A DNA stretch of 35,956 bases from positions 1 to 35,956 of the forward strand of contig JAMONN010000155.1 of NCBI GenBank assembly GCA_027065775.1, in the 5' to 3' direction. The position numbers were made by a program, and so were the translations under genes. Source of the DNA: Flavobacteriaceae bacterium. Lineage in GTDB: Bacteria; Bacteroidota; Bacteroidia; Flavobacteriales; Flavobacteriaceae. Below the pieces are notes generated by a model. It saw only the letters and a list, made by a program, of their open reading frames with translations, did not search any database and was not told the DNA's origin. Shown in pieces: positions 4,979-9,853 of this stretch (within the stretch, counting starts at the first letter, position 1; each line of letters begins with the position of its first letter).

Positions 4979-4990
4979 AAAATAGCAAAT

Positions 4991-5023
4991 AGACCTTCAA
5001 GGTTTTTAAAACCTTGAAGGTCT
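4991..5023. repeat. 33-base near-perfect palindrome (REP-like or terminator)
   Basis: Arms AGACCTTCAAGGTTTT (4991-5006) and its exact reverse complement (5008-5023) flank a single T. It begins 13 bases after the adenylate kinase stop and may end transcription in both directions, although no long T run follows. The 16-base arms with a one-base loop are shared by palindromes of other sequence at 7602-7634 and (17-base arms) 25103-25137. Confidence 0.7.
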
Positions 5024-5040
5024 AGCTTTAAATTAAACAA

Positions 5041-5096: not shown

Positions 5097-6089
5097 ATGA
5101 CTGAAGGAAATTTTGTAGACTACATAAAAATATATGCTTCTGCTGGTAATGGCGGAAAAGGTTCTGTGCATTTACATAGAGAAAAGTACATTACTAAAGG
5201 CGGACCAGATGGTGGCGATGGCGGTCGTGGTGGACACATTATTATTAGAGCAAATAGAGAAATGTGGACTCTTTTTCATCTAAAATTTAAACAACATTTT
5301 AGAGCAACCGAAGGTCATGGCGGAAGTGGAAGTAGAAGTACAGGTAAAGATGGTAAAGATATTTATATTGATGTTCCTTTAGGTACTATTATCCGACATG
5401 GCGAAACGCAAGAAAAATTATTTGAAGTAACAGAAGATAAAGAAGAAGTTATTTTATTAAGAGGTGGACAAGGCGGTCGAGGTAATTGGCACTTTAGATC
5501 TTCTACAAATCAAACACCTAGATATGCACAACCAGGAATTGATGGTTTAGAAGCTTGGTTTCAATTAGAATTAAAAGTACTAGCAGATGTTGGTTTAGTA
5601 GGTTTTCCTAATGCTGGTAAATCCACTTTATTATCTGTAATTACTTCAGCAAAACCTAAAATAGCAGATTATGCTTTTACTACTTTAAAACCAAATTTAG
5701 GTATTGTAGAATATCGTAATTTTAGATCTTTTGTAATGGCGGATATTCCTGGTATTATCGAAGGTGCAGCAGAAGGAAAAGGATTAGGGCATCGTTTTTT
5801 AAGACATATAGAACGTAATTCTACGTTGTTATTTATGATTCCTGCAGATAGTGATGATATTAAAAAAGAATACGAAATATTGTTGAATGAATTACGTAAA
5901 CATAATCCAGAATTAATAGACAAACAACGTTTGTTGGCGATTTCAAAATCGGATATGTTAGATGATGAACTTATAGAAGAAATAACTAAAGAATTACCAA
6001 AAGACGTTCCTTTTATATTTATTTCTTCGGTAGCACAGCAAAATATAATGGAACTTAAAGATAAACTTTGGGCGATGTTGCAGGATTAA
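5097..6089 (+). CDS. obg: Obg family GTPase
   Basis: Obg GTPases bind the large ribosomal subunit and take part in ribosome maturation and growth control. The product is 330 residues from ATG 5097. The frame extends upstream to 5058 only through a dispersed repeat, and [20 protein letters not shown] is the natural Obg N-terminus. Residues 1-158 form the Gly-rich Obg fold ([20 protein letters not shown]). The G domain follows, with G1 GFPNAGKST near 166-174, a G3 DIPG, G4 SKSD and a G5-like ISSVA. The C-terminal OCT domain of longer homologues is absent, as is usual here. The stop codon (6087-6089) overlaps the stop of the oppositely oriented ATPase gene, and a second copy of the last 159 bases lies at 7442-7600. 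The last codon reads GAT TAA here but GAA TAG in that copy. Confidence 0.97.
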
Positions 6090-7279
6090 TACAGAAACCC
6101 AAACAACCAAAGTGGTATTATATTTCCATTACCATATTCTATATTATCTTTAATAACATAAGCGTTCTTAATATCTTTTATTTGTTTTTTCGTTTTGTTT
6201 TTTCCTCCAATTTCAAAAGTATAGGTATCATTAACTACAAAATCACTTTTATTAGATAAATCTATTTTAGAAACAATTTTTAATTGATTTAAAAAAAACG
6301 TCTCCCTAATATTACCAATATTTGCATTTTTATTTGCAATGGCATTTATAATATTTGTATTGTTTAAATACAATTTATCTGGTTTACTTAAAATGGTAAT
6401 TCCTTTATTTGGTTTATTTATTATAGTAATTAATCTTGCTTTATCTAAATAAGTAAGTGCTTTTATTAAACTTTGTCTAGAGATGTTAATTTTTTCAGCA
6501 ATTTTACTAATATTTGGTATAAAGGGTACACTTGTAGCTATAGCAAAAAGCAATTTTTTAATTTTTGTAACTTGTTGAAAATCTATATTTTCTACTGCTA
6601 AAATATCAACCTCAATAATTAGGTTAATGGTATTTATTAGTTTTTGTTGGTATTCAGTTATTCCTTGAGTGAAATATGGATATGCACCATATTGATTGTA
6701 TGTATTAAAAGTGAGAATTGGTTTTATTTTTTGATTAATTTCTGAAGCAATTTCAACATGATTTTTAAGTATGTTTTCTAAACTATAAATTGGCAATTTA
6801 ATTGAATTTTCTAATTCAATAAATTCTCTAATTGACATTTCTGGTAAAGTATAACTTACAACTCTACGAGATAAATCAGATTCCGATTTATAAATTTCTA
6901 AAATAGATGATGAAGTAAAAACTACTTTTAAATCAGGATGATTGTCATAGATTAATTTTATTTCTCTCGACCAATTTGGGTATTTATGAACTTCATCTAA
7001 AAAGAGATATTTTCCATCATTTTGTGAAAATTCTTCTGCTAACTCTATTAAATTATTTTCTGTAAAAAATAATTCGTCCATAGATATATATAAAACAGAA
7101 TTATCTTTAGGTAAATTTAATTTTATGTGTTGTAATAAGAGTGTAGTTTTACCAACACCTCTTGCGCCTTTTATAGCAATTAGTTGGTTGTCCCAATTAA
7201 TTTTAGATAACAAAAAACGTTTGAAATTTGTTTTCGTTCTTTCTATTTTTGTTCTAGATTTATTGAATAAAGAAACCAT
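6086..7279 (-). CDS. AAA_14 ATPase with C-terminal DUF4143 domain
   Basis: Predicted product of 397 residues. It has Walker [10 protein letters not shown] (38-46), Walker [11 protein letters not shown] (91-100), a sensor-like VVFTSSSIL, then a winged-helix-like middle ([15 protein letters not shown]). The C-terminal segment [13 protein letters not shown] and the end [10 protein letters not shown] are typical of DUF4143, which resembles a PD-(D/E)XK nuclease fold. These proteins are widespread, poorly understood accessory ATPases. Codons rise to an upstream ATG at 7333, but a TATATTTG element at 7298-7305 would leave that start outside the transcript, so 7279 is preferred. The gene points against obg and its stop overlaps the obg stop. 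The flanking copies of obg and glmS pieces mark it as an insertion. Confidence 0.85.
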
Positions 7280-7297
7280 ATTGTTAATTATAAATAA

Positions 7298-7305
7298 CAA
7301 ATATA
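7298..7305 (-). promoter_or_regulatory. TAnnTTTG element upstream of the ATPase gene
   Basis: On the minus strand this reads TATATTTG and lies 18 bases before ATG 7279. The nearest upstream TTG is about 25 bases away, longer than the usual 19-21, so only the -7 part is convincing. Confidence 0.4.
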
Positions 7306-7371
7306 TAAAAATATTGTTAAACACGATTAACAATTAACACATTAAAAAAACCAATGCATTATTGAATGTAG

Positions 7372-7441
7372 GAAATTTCTTTTAATTTTAACGCATTTTA
7401 ACGCACCTTCTAAAGCCACAGGAAAATTAAAACCTCTACCT
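7372..7441 (-). pseudogene. glmS internal fragment (duplicate)
   Basis: These bases match the interior of the resident glmS at 8358-8417 (residues about 479-498, [20 protein letters not shown]), in the same orientation. A 10-base repeat (TTTTAACGCA twice) breaks the frame. Outside it, the two base changes are synonymous (TTC/TTT, GCA/GCG), as between alleles of related strains. The fragment ends at 7441, exactly where the obg fragment begins. Confidence 0.85.
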
Positions 7442-7600
7442 TTGTTAGCGATTTCAAAATCGGATATGTTAGATGATGAACTTATAGAAGAAATAACTAA
7501 AGAATTACCAAAAGACGCTCCTTTTATATTTATTTCTTCGGTTGCACAACAAAATATAATGGAACTTAAAGATAAACTTTGGGCGATGTTGCAGGAATAG
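7442..7600 (+). pseudogene. obg 3'-end fragment (duplicate)
   Basis: 159 bases match obg 5931-6089 (residues about 279-330 plus stop) with six differences. One changes Val to Ala, three are synonymous, and two change the end from GAT TAA to GAA TAG. The fragment has no start and cannot be expressed alone. Because it is not downstream of the ATPase insertion, its GAA TAG end may be the original obg terminus. The palindrome at 7602 follows its stop directly. Confidence 0.9.
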
Positions 7601-7601
7601 T

Positions 7602-7634
7602 ATTCACACCGTGACTTTAAGTCACGGTGTGAAT
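7602..7634. repeat. 33-base near-perfect palindrome
   Basis: Arms ATTCACACCGTGACTT (7602-7617) and the exact reverse complement (7619-7634) flank a single T, followed by ATTTTT. It starts one base after the stop of the duplicated obg end and is probably a terminator or REP-like element. Confidence 0.7.
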
Positions 7635-7757
7635 ATTTTTAAGACACTATCCTTTTAAAAGAACACCATTTCAAAATGGTTATGTATTTTTCTCTAATTG
7701 CTTTAGACCACTGATAAGTTTTAACCACAGTTTATCTGGGTTACAAATATAAAAATC
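7635..7757. other. Non-coding spacer between two obg tail copies
   Basis: No credible ORF is present. A small hairpin with arms ACCATTT and AAATGGT lies at 7665-7680. Nothing else is recognisable. The stretch is bounded on both sides by copies of the obg 3' end, so it may be an inserted or duplicated segment. Confidence 0.4.
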
Positions 7758-7777
7758 AATAAACTTTGGGCGATGTT
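7758..7777 (+). repeat. Third copy of the obg tail (19-20 bases)
   Basis: ATAAACTTTGGGCGATGTT at 7759-7777 is identical to obg 6061-6079 and to 7572-7590. It ends three bases before the stop of the small membrane-protein gene that is read from the other strand. Confidence 0.75.
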
Positions 7778-7780
7778 AAA

Positions 7781-7912
7781 TTAACCAAAAAACAGTTTTA
7801 AAAAGCGTTCAGCATTAAACCACATATAAATAATCACAAAAAGTAAAACAACCATAACCAAACCCCTAATGTTGTTTGGTTTTTTTCTGTGGTTAATTTT
7901 TCTGAATTCCAT
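7781..7912 (-). CDS. Small single-helix membrane protein
   Basis: From ATG 7912 the product has 43 residues: a basic N-terminus (MEFRKINHRKKPNN), one hydrophobic helix (LVMVVLLFVIIYMWF) and a short tail. The frame can be extended to 7972 but the added segment looks non-coding. It lies 87 bases downstream of glmS on the same strand and could be co-transcribed. No family is recognised; the positive-inside pattern suggests a cytoplasmic N-terminus. Confidence 0.55.
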   Translation of the reverse strand: MEFRKINHRKKPNNIRGLVMVVLLFVIIYMWFNAERFLKLFFG

Positions 7913-7999
7913 AGTAATTTGTGTAACTGTTTTTTGTTTAATCGTGTAATTGTATATTAAACGGTTACACAAAAAACAATTAAACCATATTCATAAAAC

Positions 8000-9853
8000 T
8001 TACTCTACAGTAACAGATTTAGCCAAATTACGTGGTTGATCTACGTTTCTTTCTAACATAACAGCAATATGATAAGAGAATAATTGCAATGGTATTGTAG
8101 TCAATAAAGGAGTAAATGCCTCTATAGTTTCAGGTACTTCAATAACATGATCCGCAATGCCTTTTACTGTAGTATCGCCTTCGGTGACAATGGCAATAAT
8201 TTTACCTTTACGTGCTTTAATTTCTTGAATATTGCTAACTACTTTTTCGTAATGACCTTTATTTGTTGCAATAACAACAATTGGCATATTTTCATCTATA
8301 AGTGCAATTGGTCCGTGTTTCATTTCTGCTGCAGGATAACCTTCTGCATGAATATAAGAAATTTCTTTTAATTTTAATGCACCTTCTAAAGCCACAGGAA
8401 AATTGAAACCTCTACCTAAATAAAGCATATTTTTAGCATCTTTATATTCACTTGCAATATATTTTACTTTATCATTAATTTCTAAAAGACTTTCTACTTT
8501 TTTAGGAATTAATTCCATTTCTTGTAAATAAGAATGGTAATCTGTTTTGGAAACATTTCCGTTTGCCAAACCTAATTTTAAAGCAATTAAAGATAGTAGT
8601 GTAATTTGAGTTGTAAATGCTTTGGTGGAAGCAACGCCAATTTCAGGACCAGCATGTGTATAGGCACCAGCATGTGCTTCACGAGCAATTGAAGAACCAA
8701 CCACATTACAAACACCAAATACAAAAGCACCTTTTTCTTTTGCCATTTTTATGGCTGCTAAAGTATCTGCAGTTTCACCAGATTGTGAAATTGCAATCAC
8801 AATATCGTCTTTGTTTATTATCGGATTACGGTATCTAAATTCAGAACCATATTCAACTTCAACAGGTATTCTTGCAATATCTTCAAACAAATATTCGGCT
8901 ACTAAACCAGCATGCCAAGATGTACCACAAGCAACAATAATAATTCTTTTTGCATTTAAGAATTTTTGCATGTTATCATCAACGCCAGCCATTCTAATTA
9001 GACCTTCATTAACTAACATTCTACCTCTAAAAGTATCGATTATTGCTTTAGGTTGTTCATGAATTTCCTTTAGCATGAAATGATCGTAACCACCTTTTTC
9101 AATTTGCTCTAAATTTAATTTTAATTGTAAAATATCTGGATCTACTAATGAATCGTCTTGAATTTTACGTACTTTTATTTCTCTATCTATTTTTATAACA
9201 GCCATTTCGCCATCTTCTAAATAGACGCAATTTTTGGTGTATTCTATAAATGGTGATGCATCAGAAGCAATAAAAAACTCTTTATTATCTTCACCAATTC
9301 CGATAGCAATCGGGCTACCCAAACGAGCAACTACAAATTCATCTGGTTTGGTTTTATCAAAAACAACAATGGCATAAGCGCCAATAACTTGATTTAAAGC
9401 TAATTGTACTGCTTTACCAAGTTTAACGTTTTCTGTTTTTTTAATTTCTTCAATTAAATTAATTAAAACTTCGGTATCTGTATCACTTTTAAAGGTGTAA
9501 CCTCTGTTAATTAATTCAATTTTTATGGTATCGTAATTTTCGATTATTCCGTTATGGATAATCACTAAATTTTCTGATTCGGAAAAATGAGGATGAGAAT
9601 TTACATCATTTGGTACACCATGTGTTGCCCAACGTGTATGACCAAAACCAATATTACCAGTAGTAGTAATTTCTTTTTTTATTCTTTTTTCAAGATCAGA
9701 AACTTTACCTTTGGTTTTAGACATTTTAAGTTCTTTACCATCGTAAAGAATTAATCCTGCACTATCATAACCTCTATATTCAAGACGTTTTAAACCGTTA
9801 ATAATAATAGGATGCGCATCTCTATAACCTATATAACCAGTAATACCACACAT
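8000..9853 (-). CDS. glmS: Glutamine-fructose-6-phosphate aminotransferase
   Basis: This enzyme makes glucosamine-6-phosphate from fructose-6-phosphate and glutamine, the first step to UDP-GlcNAc for peptidoglycan and LPS. The 617-residue product starts MCGITGYIG, so Cys2 becomes the N-terminal nucleophile of the glutaminase domain, which also has GHTRWATHG and HNGIIENY. Two SIS sugar-isomerase domains follow: ACGTSWHAG and SQSGETADT in the first, [18 protein letters not shown] in the second. It ends with the diagnostic PRNLAKSVTVE. No glmS ribozyme is expected, and only 73 bases separate it from the upstream lipoprotein gene, so it is probably in one operon with the two genes to its right. 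A fragment of this gene is duplicated at 7372-7441. Confidence 0.98.
   Translation of the reverse strand: MCGITGYIGYRDAHPIIINGLKRLEYRGYDSAGLILYDGKELKMSKTKGKVSDLEKRIKKEITTTGNIGFGHTRWATHGVPNDVNSHPHFSESENLVIIHNGIIENYDTIKIELINRGYTFKSDTDTEVLINLIEEIKKTENVKLGKAVQLALNQVIGAYAIVVFDKTKPDEFVVARLGSPIAIGIGEDNKEFFIASDASPFIEYTKNCVYLEDGEMAVIKIDREIKVRKIQDDSLVDPDILQLKLNLEQIEKGGYDHFMLKEIHEQPKAIIDTFRGRMLVNEGLIRMAGVDDNMQKFLNAKRIIIVACGTSWHAGLVAEYLFEDIARIPVEVEYGSEFRYRNPIINKDDIVIAISQSGETADTLAAIKMAKEKGAFVFGVCNVVGSSIAREAHAGAYTHAGPEIGVASTKAFTTQITLLSLIALKLGLANGNVSKTDYHSYLQEMELIPKKVESLLEINDKVKYIASEYKDAKNMLYLGRGFNFPVALEGALKLKEISYIHAEGYPAAEMKHGPIALIDENMPIVVIATNKGHYEKVVSNIQEIKARKGKIIAIVTEGDTTVKGIADHVIEVPETIEAFTPLLTTIPLQLFSYHIAVMLERNVDQPRNLAKSVTVE

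Follow-up and report, generated by a model that had tools for sequence, protein, structure and literature searches.

Duplicated gene ends flank an AAA_14 ATPase gene at the obg-glmS locus of a Flavobacteriaceae genome and at some loci of related ATPases

Gene arrangement at the locus

We analyzed one contig of a Flavobacteriaceae bacterium in full (JAMONN010000155.1 of assembly GCA_027065775.1; contig C155 of genome G000 in our numbering), and "the window" below means this whole stretch, positions 1 to 35,956 (35,956 nt). The assembly comprises 281 contigs, is 87% complete, and is apparently metagenome derived. On the forward strand lies an intact resident obg gene (5097-6089; Pfam GTP1_OBG, E value of 2.9e-58; repeat D1), whose last ∼160 nt (5930-6089, ending ..WAMLQD and TAA) form the complete copy of a repeated end. 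It is followed on the reverse strand by an ATPase gene (6086-7279) with an AAA_14 domain, a winged-helix region, and a C-terminal DUF4143-like region, as delineated from the AAA_14 match, alignments, and an AlphaFold2 model. The ATPase stop codon occupies 6086-6088, and the TTAA at 6086-6089 is common to the stops of both genes. Directly upstream of the ATPase start are two operator-like palindromes, TTGTTA-N8-TAACAA, at 7281-7300 and 7314-7333 (I19). Beyond them are a forward-strand fragment of the glmS interior (7363-7441, counterpart 8349-8417) and a second, partial obg 3' end (7441-7600, forward strand, counterpart 5930-6089), which terminates in a stop codon of its own (..WAMLQE, TAG). 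The intact resident glmS, source or sister of the fragment by alignment, lies on the reverse strand at 8000-9853 (SIS, 3.2e-63). The ATPase gene is the sole long open reading frame (ORF) between the two obg repeats. An integrase-driven island with restoration of the target gene was rejected, as there is no recombinase gene between these repeats.

A preliminary description of this DNA had reported a piece of glmS joined directly to a copy of the obg 3' end, and both pieces were located as claimed. The obg piece matches 5927-6091 at 96% identity (E value of 5.8e-72) and the glmS piece matches 8349-8417 (E value of 3.3e-17), both far beyond chance. Where the two meet, at about position 7441, they share at most 1 to 2 nt, reading the sequence by eye. 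The glmS piece differs from the resident gene by 4 substitutions, all synonymous (alignment, with codons read by eye), and contains a 10-nt tandem insertion that the preliminary description did not list. Over the 52 codons compared, the obg piece shows 3 synonymous and 2 nonsynonymous differences from the resident; of the nonsynonymous changes, one falls in the codon at the junction. Copy and resident also have different final codons and stops (..LQE/TAG versus ..LQD/TAA).

Immediately past the TAG of this obg end is a dispersed terminator-like hairpin (7601-7643) that recurs at nine or more further positions in the same genome and has some matches in relatives too (I7). A second terminator-like hairpin, of similar make, lies at 4990-5024. 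A further 114 nt (7644-7757) separate the hairpin at 7601-7643 from a third obg 3' end on the forward strand (7758-7783). Around this interval, 7729-7752 matches one place in G009 and 7731-7765 matches one place in G036. The third end was recognized by 19 exact nucleotides at 7759-7777, one of three obg-end copies (D4), and in the obg frame it reads DKLWAMLN-stop. The intact obg is accompanied by dissociated ends at 7441-7600 and 7758-7783.

The stop of the third end meets that of a small conserved ORF on the reverse strand (7781-7913; MEFRKINHRKKPNN..), which is downstream of glmS and has a membrane-like stretch. DNA similar to this ORF lies beside glmS in two genus relatives (G005 and G004), with short matches in three others (G003, G001, and G002), and the ORF is apparently the ancestral neighbor of glmS. 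Because its stop meets an ORF whose DNA adjoins glmS in relatives, the third end is probably the oldest obg end, still in place beside the glmS neighborhood. With the order of the three ends taken from their position, the obg 3' end seems to have been replaced at least twice, from ..LN on the glmS side, through ..LQE with its hairpin, to ..LQD at the ATPase gene.

The genus contains six genomes, and the assemblies of the five relatives are 70 to 94% complete. Each of the five gave a single match for obg and a single one for glmS, and the neighborhoods retrieved from them held no ATPase match near obg or glmS. In G004, 6 kb containing five other genes separates obg from glmS, and this block has only short matches in our genome (87% complete); in the remaining four, the two genes lie on different contigs. 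None of the five provided a clean empty site for the locus. The arrangement that the preliminary description had named as contrary to its reading, both fragments in a relative without the ATPase gene, was not found among these five incomplete genomes.

The main rival to the reading developed below is a local rearrangement, which we regard as unlikely. It would consist of a tandem duplication running from obg 5930 to glmS 8417, or of template switching between the two adjacent genes, after which the ATPase gene took the place of the central part of the left copy, so that its association with the junction is incidental. The preliminary description had proposed such a tandem duplication, and the order of the pieces, glmS and then obg, is exactly head-to-tail as it stated. 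Both pieces have also diverged to a similar small extent, and obg and glmS are neighbors in this genome. The remainder of the left duplicate copy is missing. Against this scenario, the third obg end goes unexplained. A freely drifting copy should show amino acid changes, whereas every glmS substitution is synonymous, and the 6-kb distance in G004 also speaks against this scenario.

ATPase protein and its distribution

The protein matches AAA_14 (E value of 2.3e-29; 102.4 bits) well above the curated cutoff of 27, and DUF4143 with 26.5 bits falls just below the cutoff of 28.1. The best PADLOC match was the candidate defense gene PDC-S01 (6.4e-25). Searches of NCBIfam profiles with five proteins returned matches only far below the cutoff, and none for two of the five; solved structures searched by sequence gave only RecA fusions via the P-loop region, which were uninformative. 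We take COG1373 to be the COG of this ATPase type.

The AlphaFold2 model has a mean pLDDT of 89.9 and a pTM of 0.85. In the fold search, whose rows cover model residues 18 to 337, the predicted structure resembles ATPases of archaea and the core of STAND/NLR ATPases (2fna, Z of 16.0, root mean square deviation [rmsd] of 3.8, 259 residues aligned; 2qen, Z of 15.7, rmsd of 4.3, 262 aligned). The C-terminal 78 residues (338 to 415) lie outside these rows and are modeled as a helix-strand-strand-strand arrangement. In alignments of relatives, R343, E344, E374, and K380 are invariant and D364 is invariant to nearly so. These conserved residues and the strand order suggest that the C-terminal region is a predicted PD-(D/E)XK nuclease, which we presume to be the appropriate family label.

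The same residues on the same model favor a second alternative, in which the ATPase, by means of its PD-(D/E)XK-like tail, would cut gene ends and insert its own gene like a homing gene, with repeats of 40 to 210 nt arising either from a widely staggered cut or through copying during repair. We consider such active insertion improbable, and we know of no activity for these ATPases.

The ATPase ORF is readable up to a TTG at 7333, and the probable start is instead the ATG at 7279-7277, which encodes a methionine (M19) that is invariant in one alignment and nearly so in another. Of 117 ATPase loci, 14 have at least two palindromes with the same arms in their upstream region, compared with 0.2 expected from mononucleotide shuffles. 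The obg-locus gene is not among the 14, the scanned stretch having stopped inside its second palindrome. The arms vary between family members, and the palindromes raise the possibility that these ATPases may bind their own promoters. As a separate observation, among the 80 best of 309 confirmed loci, 17 have a stop within the tblastn span of the ATPase. When 42 were examined singly, 11 had a stop, which in nine came first no more than 15 residues from the start of the span, perhaps merely a wrong start call; L097 and L139 have internal stops.

Close relatives of the ATPase are patchily distributed, with 21 carriers among 395 genomes from the order (E ≤ 1e-60), and our genome itself has three copies, weak and distant matches being left out of this last count. 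This spread is in keeping with active insertion. We rejected carriage as prophage cargo, since only 1 of 50,697 phage records (E ≤ 1e-10) and 4 loci in viral_contigs had a match. Relatives were rare among plasmid records as well (24 of 72,556, E ≤ 1e-20). Some ATPase loci have flanking genes in common: L074, L076, L077, L098, L101, and L104 form one such group, and L075, L078, L080, L085, and L140 form a second whose common genes are polysaccharide-cluster-like. COG1373 appears in a table of genes transferred between gut genera in the portion of that report available to us (PMC10782964), a listing that fits a mobile ATPase and is silent on scars.

Flanking repeats at other ATPase loci

An initial look revealed four further ATPase loci with repeats close on both sides of the gene, and larger sets gave more. 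We then counted direct repeats of at least 40 nt with at least 80% identity and E ≤ 1e-8 lying within 300 nt on each side, a criterion fixed after the first cases had been seen. From 125 ATPase loci, 6 duplicates were removed to give 119, and another 10, in which one flank was shorter than 250 nt, were then removed to give 109. One contributing set was the 80 best loci of the 309 confirmed, and three copies without a locus were left out of the order-wide set.

A flanking direct repeat was present at 16 of the 109 distinct ATPase loci, and the other 93 had none at this criterion. L165, L175, and L212 also have flanking repeats, though they are among the dropped loci. For comparison, other ORFs of similar length at the same loci had a repeat in 2 of 135 cases. 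Two patchily distributed families served as further controls: Shedu, found in 19 of 395 genomes, had 0 of 18 (20 loci, less two below the cutoff), and AAA_15, found in 80 of 395, had 1 of 29 (30 matches with loci, less one with a short flank). PF09820 was dropped as a control because it was too rare (3 of 395 genomes). The excess is significant against all controls pooled (3/182; Fisher P = 2.2e-5) and modest against the two patchy families alone (1/47; P = 0.023). The direction was the same at every other threshold tried: 14/90 versus 3/135 for 30 nt and E ≤ 1e-5, 7/90 versus 1/135 for 80 nt, and 17/90 versus 2/135 within 800 nt.

In 11 of the 16 loci, one copy of the repeat coincides with a terminus of an open ORF: the 3' terminus or its vicinity in seven cases and the 5' terminus in four (the ORF at L152 is partly masked). 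By our own reading, the ORFs with a duplicated end include obg, queG, sugar or glycosyl transferases, SUI1-like and PorQ-like genes, and others. The remaining five repeats (L083, L105, L123, L130, and L161) lie outside listed ORFs, and some may be dispersed repeats. The isolate Runella defluvii DSM 17976 has a perfect 43-nt repeat flanking its ATPase gene, and G363 has two ATPase copies (L133/L201 and L219), each with a duplicated start of the neighboring gene, of 127 nt and 62 nt. Among the units listed, those other than the obg-locus unit measure 1.3 to 2.4 kb. An insertion sequence or transposon was rejected: the repeats range from 41 to 213 nt, their distance to the ATPase gene varies, and no common terminal sequence was evident by eye.

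These repeats bear on each of the alternatives. That they recur around relatives of this ATPase argues against a purely local rearrangement, and together with the third obg end the difference in frequency between ATPase loci and controls disfavors a chance duplication that the ATPase gene later overwrote. Duplication and ATPase insertion are more likely a single process. The perfect repeat in Runella and the two repeat-flanked copies in G363 would suit active insertion; the variation in repeat length and unit ends, and the fact that no terminal repeats were seen, would not. An assembly artefact, in which the assembler joined strain variants of obg and glmS from a metagenome, would be in line with the fragmented and incomplete assembly and with the resemblance of the copies to near alleles. 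It would have to account for two clean joins, the 10-nt insertion, and three obg ends with separate stops, and a gene-end repeat is present in the genome of at least one named isolate as well; we consider it very improbable.

Empty site and origin of the copies

One locus, L078 of G070, could be compared with relatives that lack the insertion. Two of the four other genomes of that genus, G184 and G182, have a matching locus that lacks the ATPase gene (the other two were unmatched), and in both the upstream region and a sugar-transferase gene form a single run. In G070, the upstream region runs into the initial 146 nt of the gene; the ATPase gene comes next, and then the gene anew from its start. 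From this layout, it is the fragment that has kept its former surroundings, and the new end belongs to the complete gene. For L201 and L217, searches within the genus recovered the resident gene in 1 of 3 and 2 of 2 relatives, respectively, and no clean empty site.

A fresh duplication of the target would leave the fragment and the resident gene as mutually nearest sequences, so we compared their divergence. The queG fragment at L073 is identical to each of three genus relatives at 105 of 122 nt and to its own resident at 101 of 122; the shared stretch is uninterrupted by a stop, and the gap between resident and relatives amounts to 4 nt of 122. At L075, the fragment agrees with the resident at 131 of 150 nt and with two relatives at 128 and 130 of 150, is far more distant from three further relatives (70 to 74%), and has a stop after codon 50. 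On these counts, the L075 fragment resembles alleles of other species about as much as its own gene. That both fragments are about as far from their residents as from such alleles is unlike a fresh target-site duplication and weighs against active insertion.

The pN/pS ratio, computed for 6 of the 11 coding pairs, was 0.16 to 0.43 in all but one of them; the exception, L104, with 5 nonsynonymous and 0 synonymous differences, contains a copy that looks decayed. At L078, the two copies retain the state common to both relatives equally (4 and 4 of 8 sites). At L201, the fragment agrees with the single relative at 6 of 9 sites and the resident at 3 of 9, and L217 has one informative site. A mosaic of the kind expected from a single crossover is hinted at in L078 and was not seen in L201. 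At the obg-glmS locus itself, the two copies are equally far from the five genus relatives, which gives no resolution of the origin of the fragments. The earlier suggestion that the copies derive from a related allele thus finds agreement at L073 and L075, and at the obg locus copy and resident are equidistant from the relatives. Taken together, the comparisons are evidence, not proof, that, in some loci at least, one of the two ends is foreign.

Model for entry of the ATPase gene

We observed three obg ends, a joined glmS piece, recurring repeats around relatives of the ATPase, and one empty site. The reading that we tentatively prefer, at a little short of an even chance, is that the scar is a displaced old obg end, left behind by the homology-guided entry of DNA carrying the ATPase gene and an obg end. 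The incoming DNA would contain an obg end, the ATPase gene, and, at this locus, a bit of glmS. It would recombine with the resident obg through homology on one side and by crossover or end joining on the other. The resident gene would adopt the incoming 3' end and remain intact, the ATPase gene would come to lie against the obg stop codon, and the former 3' end would be shunted downstream, where it would now be seen at 7441-7600. The same event would have taken place once earlier and left the end at 7758-7783.

We infer a joint arrival of the ATPase gene with the new obg end, guided by the homologous stretch. The intermediate might have been a circle containing the ATPase gene and a stretch of the neighboring gene, in which case a single crossover would yield the product directly. 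Alternatively, a linear piece may have been anchored by homology at one end and joined illegitimately at the other, here at the glmS/obg join at 7441. The glmS piece, which starts inside the coding region, is awkward for either form, since no intact obg-ATPase-glmS donor would give it directly and a rearranged donor or an extra step would be needed.

A stronger proposition is that these ATPases are self-propagating single genes that enter via a gene end and leave the target repaired, with the nuclease-like ATPase recognizing or cutting that end in cells without the ATPase gene. We think this quite improbable. If true, it would describe a homing-like element without an intron, intein, transposase, or integrase, with the end of the target gene as its passport.

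Significance and relation to known systems

Single accessory genes are often found in chromosomes without a visible vehicle, and the route by which they arrived is rarely seen. The scars described here suggest that the invaded gene received a new end and stayed intact; they hold traces of the source and can be searched for by computer. Their recurrence points to a repeatable route by which such genes may enter without breaking the target gene, and any participation of the ATPase would give a role to a widespread family whose function is unknown. In searches of the open-license literature, we found no report of insertion scars of DUF4143, COG1373, DUF234, or AAA_14 genes; the obg-locus protein belongs with the AAA_14/DUF4143 ATPases by its AAA_14 match.

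The closest parallel is the displacement of rhs C-terminal ends, for which the available part of the source describes acquisition of a new end via homologous recombination, with the old end left downstream, and proposes a circle and a single crossover (Jackson et al. 2009, PMC2935791). As far as that account extends, both systems have an intact resident gene, an old end that persists as a dissociated fragment downstream, and fragments that pile up (PMC2935791). In rhs, the new end is itself the cargo, a variable tip, whereas at the obg locus the end has hardly changed and the ATPase gene, unrelated to obg, makes up the cargo; judged by the same portion of the text, the ATPase loci also differ from rhs in their varied target genes and in the displacement of 5' as well as 3' ends (PMC2935791). 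We rejected the obg locus as a true rhs member, as the gene is obg, without the rhs core and variable tip, and the resemblance is one of process.

Homology-facilitated illegitimate recombination has been invoked for type VI secretion system (T6SS) effector-immunity modules of Vibrio cholerae, which, in the sections of the report at hand, share with the ATPase loci a single homologous anchor, a nonhomologous join, and an older piece that remains downstream (PMC5361080). The ATPase loci differ from what those sections describe in involving unrelated loci, one ATPase family, and mostly addition with a duplicated gene end (PMC5361080). In natural transformation of Streptococcus pneumoniae, according to the accessible passages of a further study, partly homologous incoming DNA likewise generates a duplication and a new junction (PMC3784515). 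The tandem duplication in those passages spans 107 kb and is unstable, compared with duplications of 40 to 210 nt around one inserted gene at the ATPase loci (PMC3784515). By analogy with these systems, the process itself appears to resemble known end displacement, and the new part is its repeated link to one ATPase family and to the 3' and 5' ends of ordinary genes.
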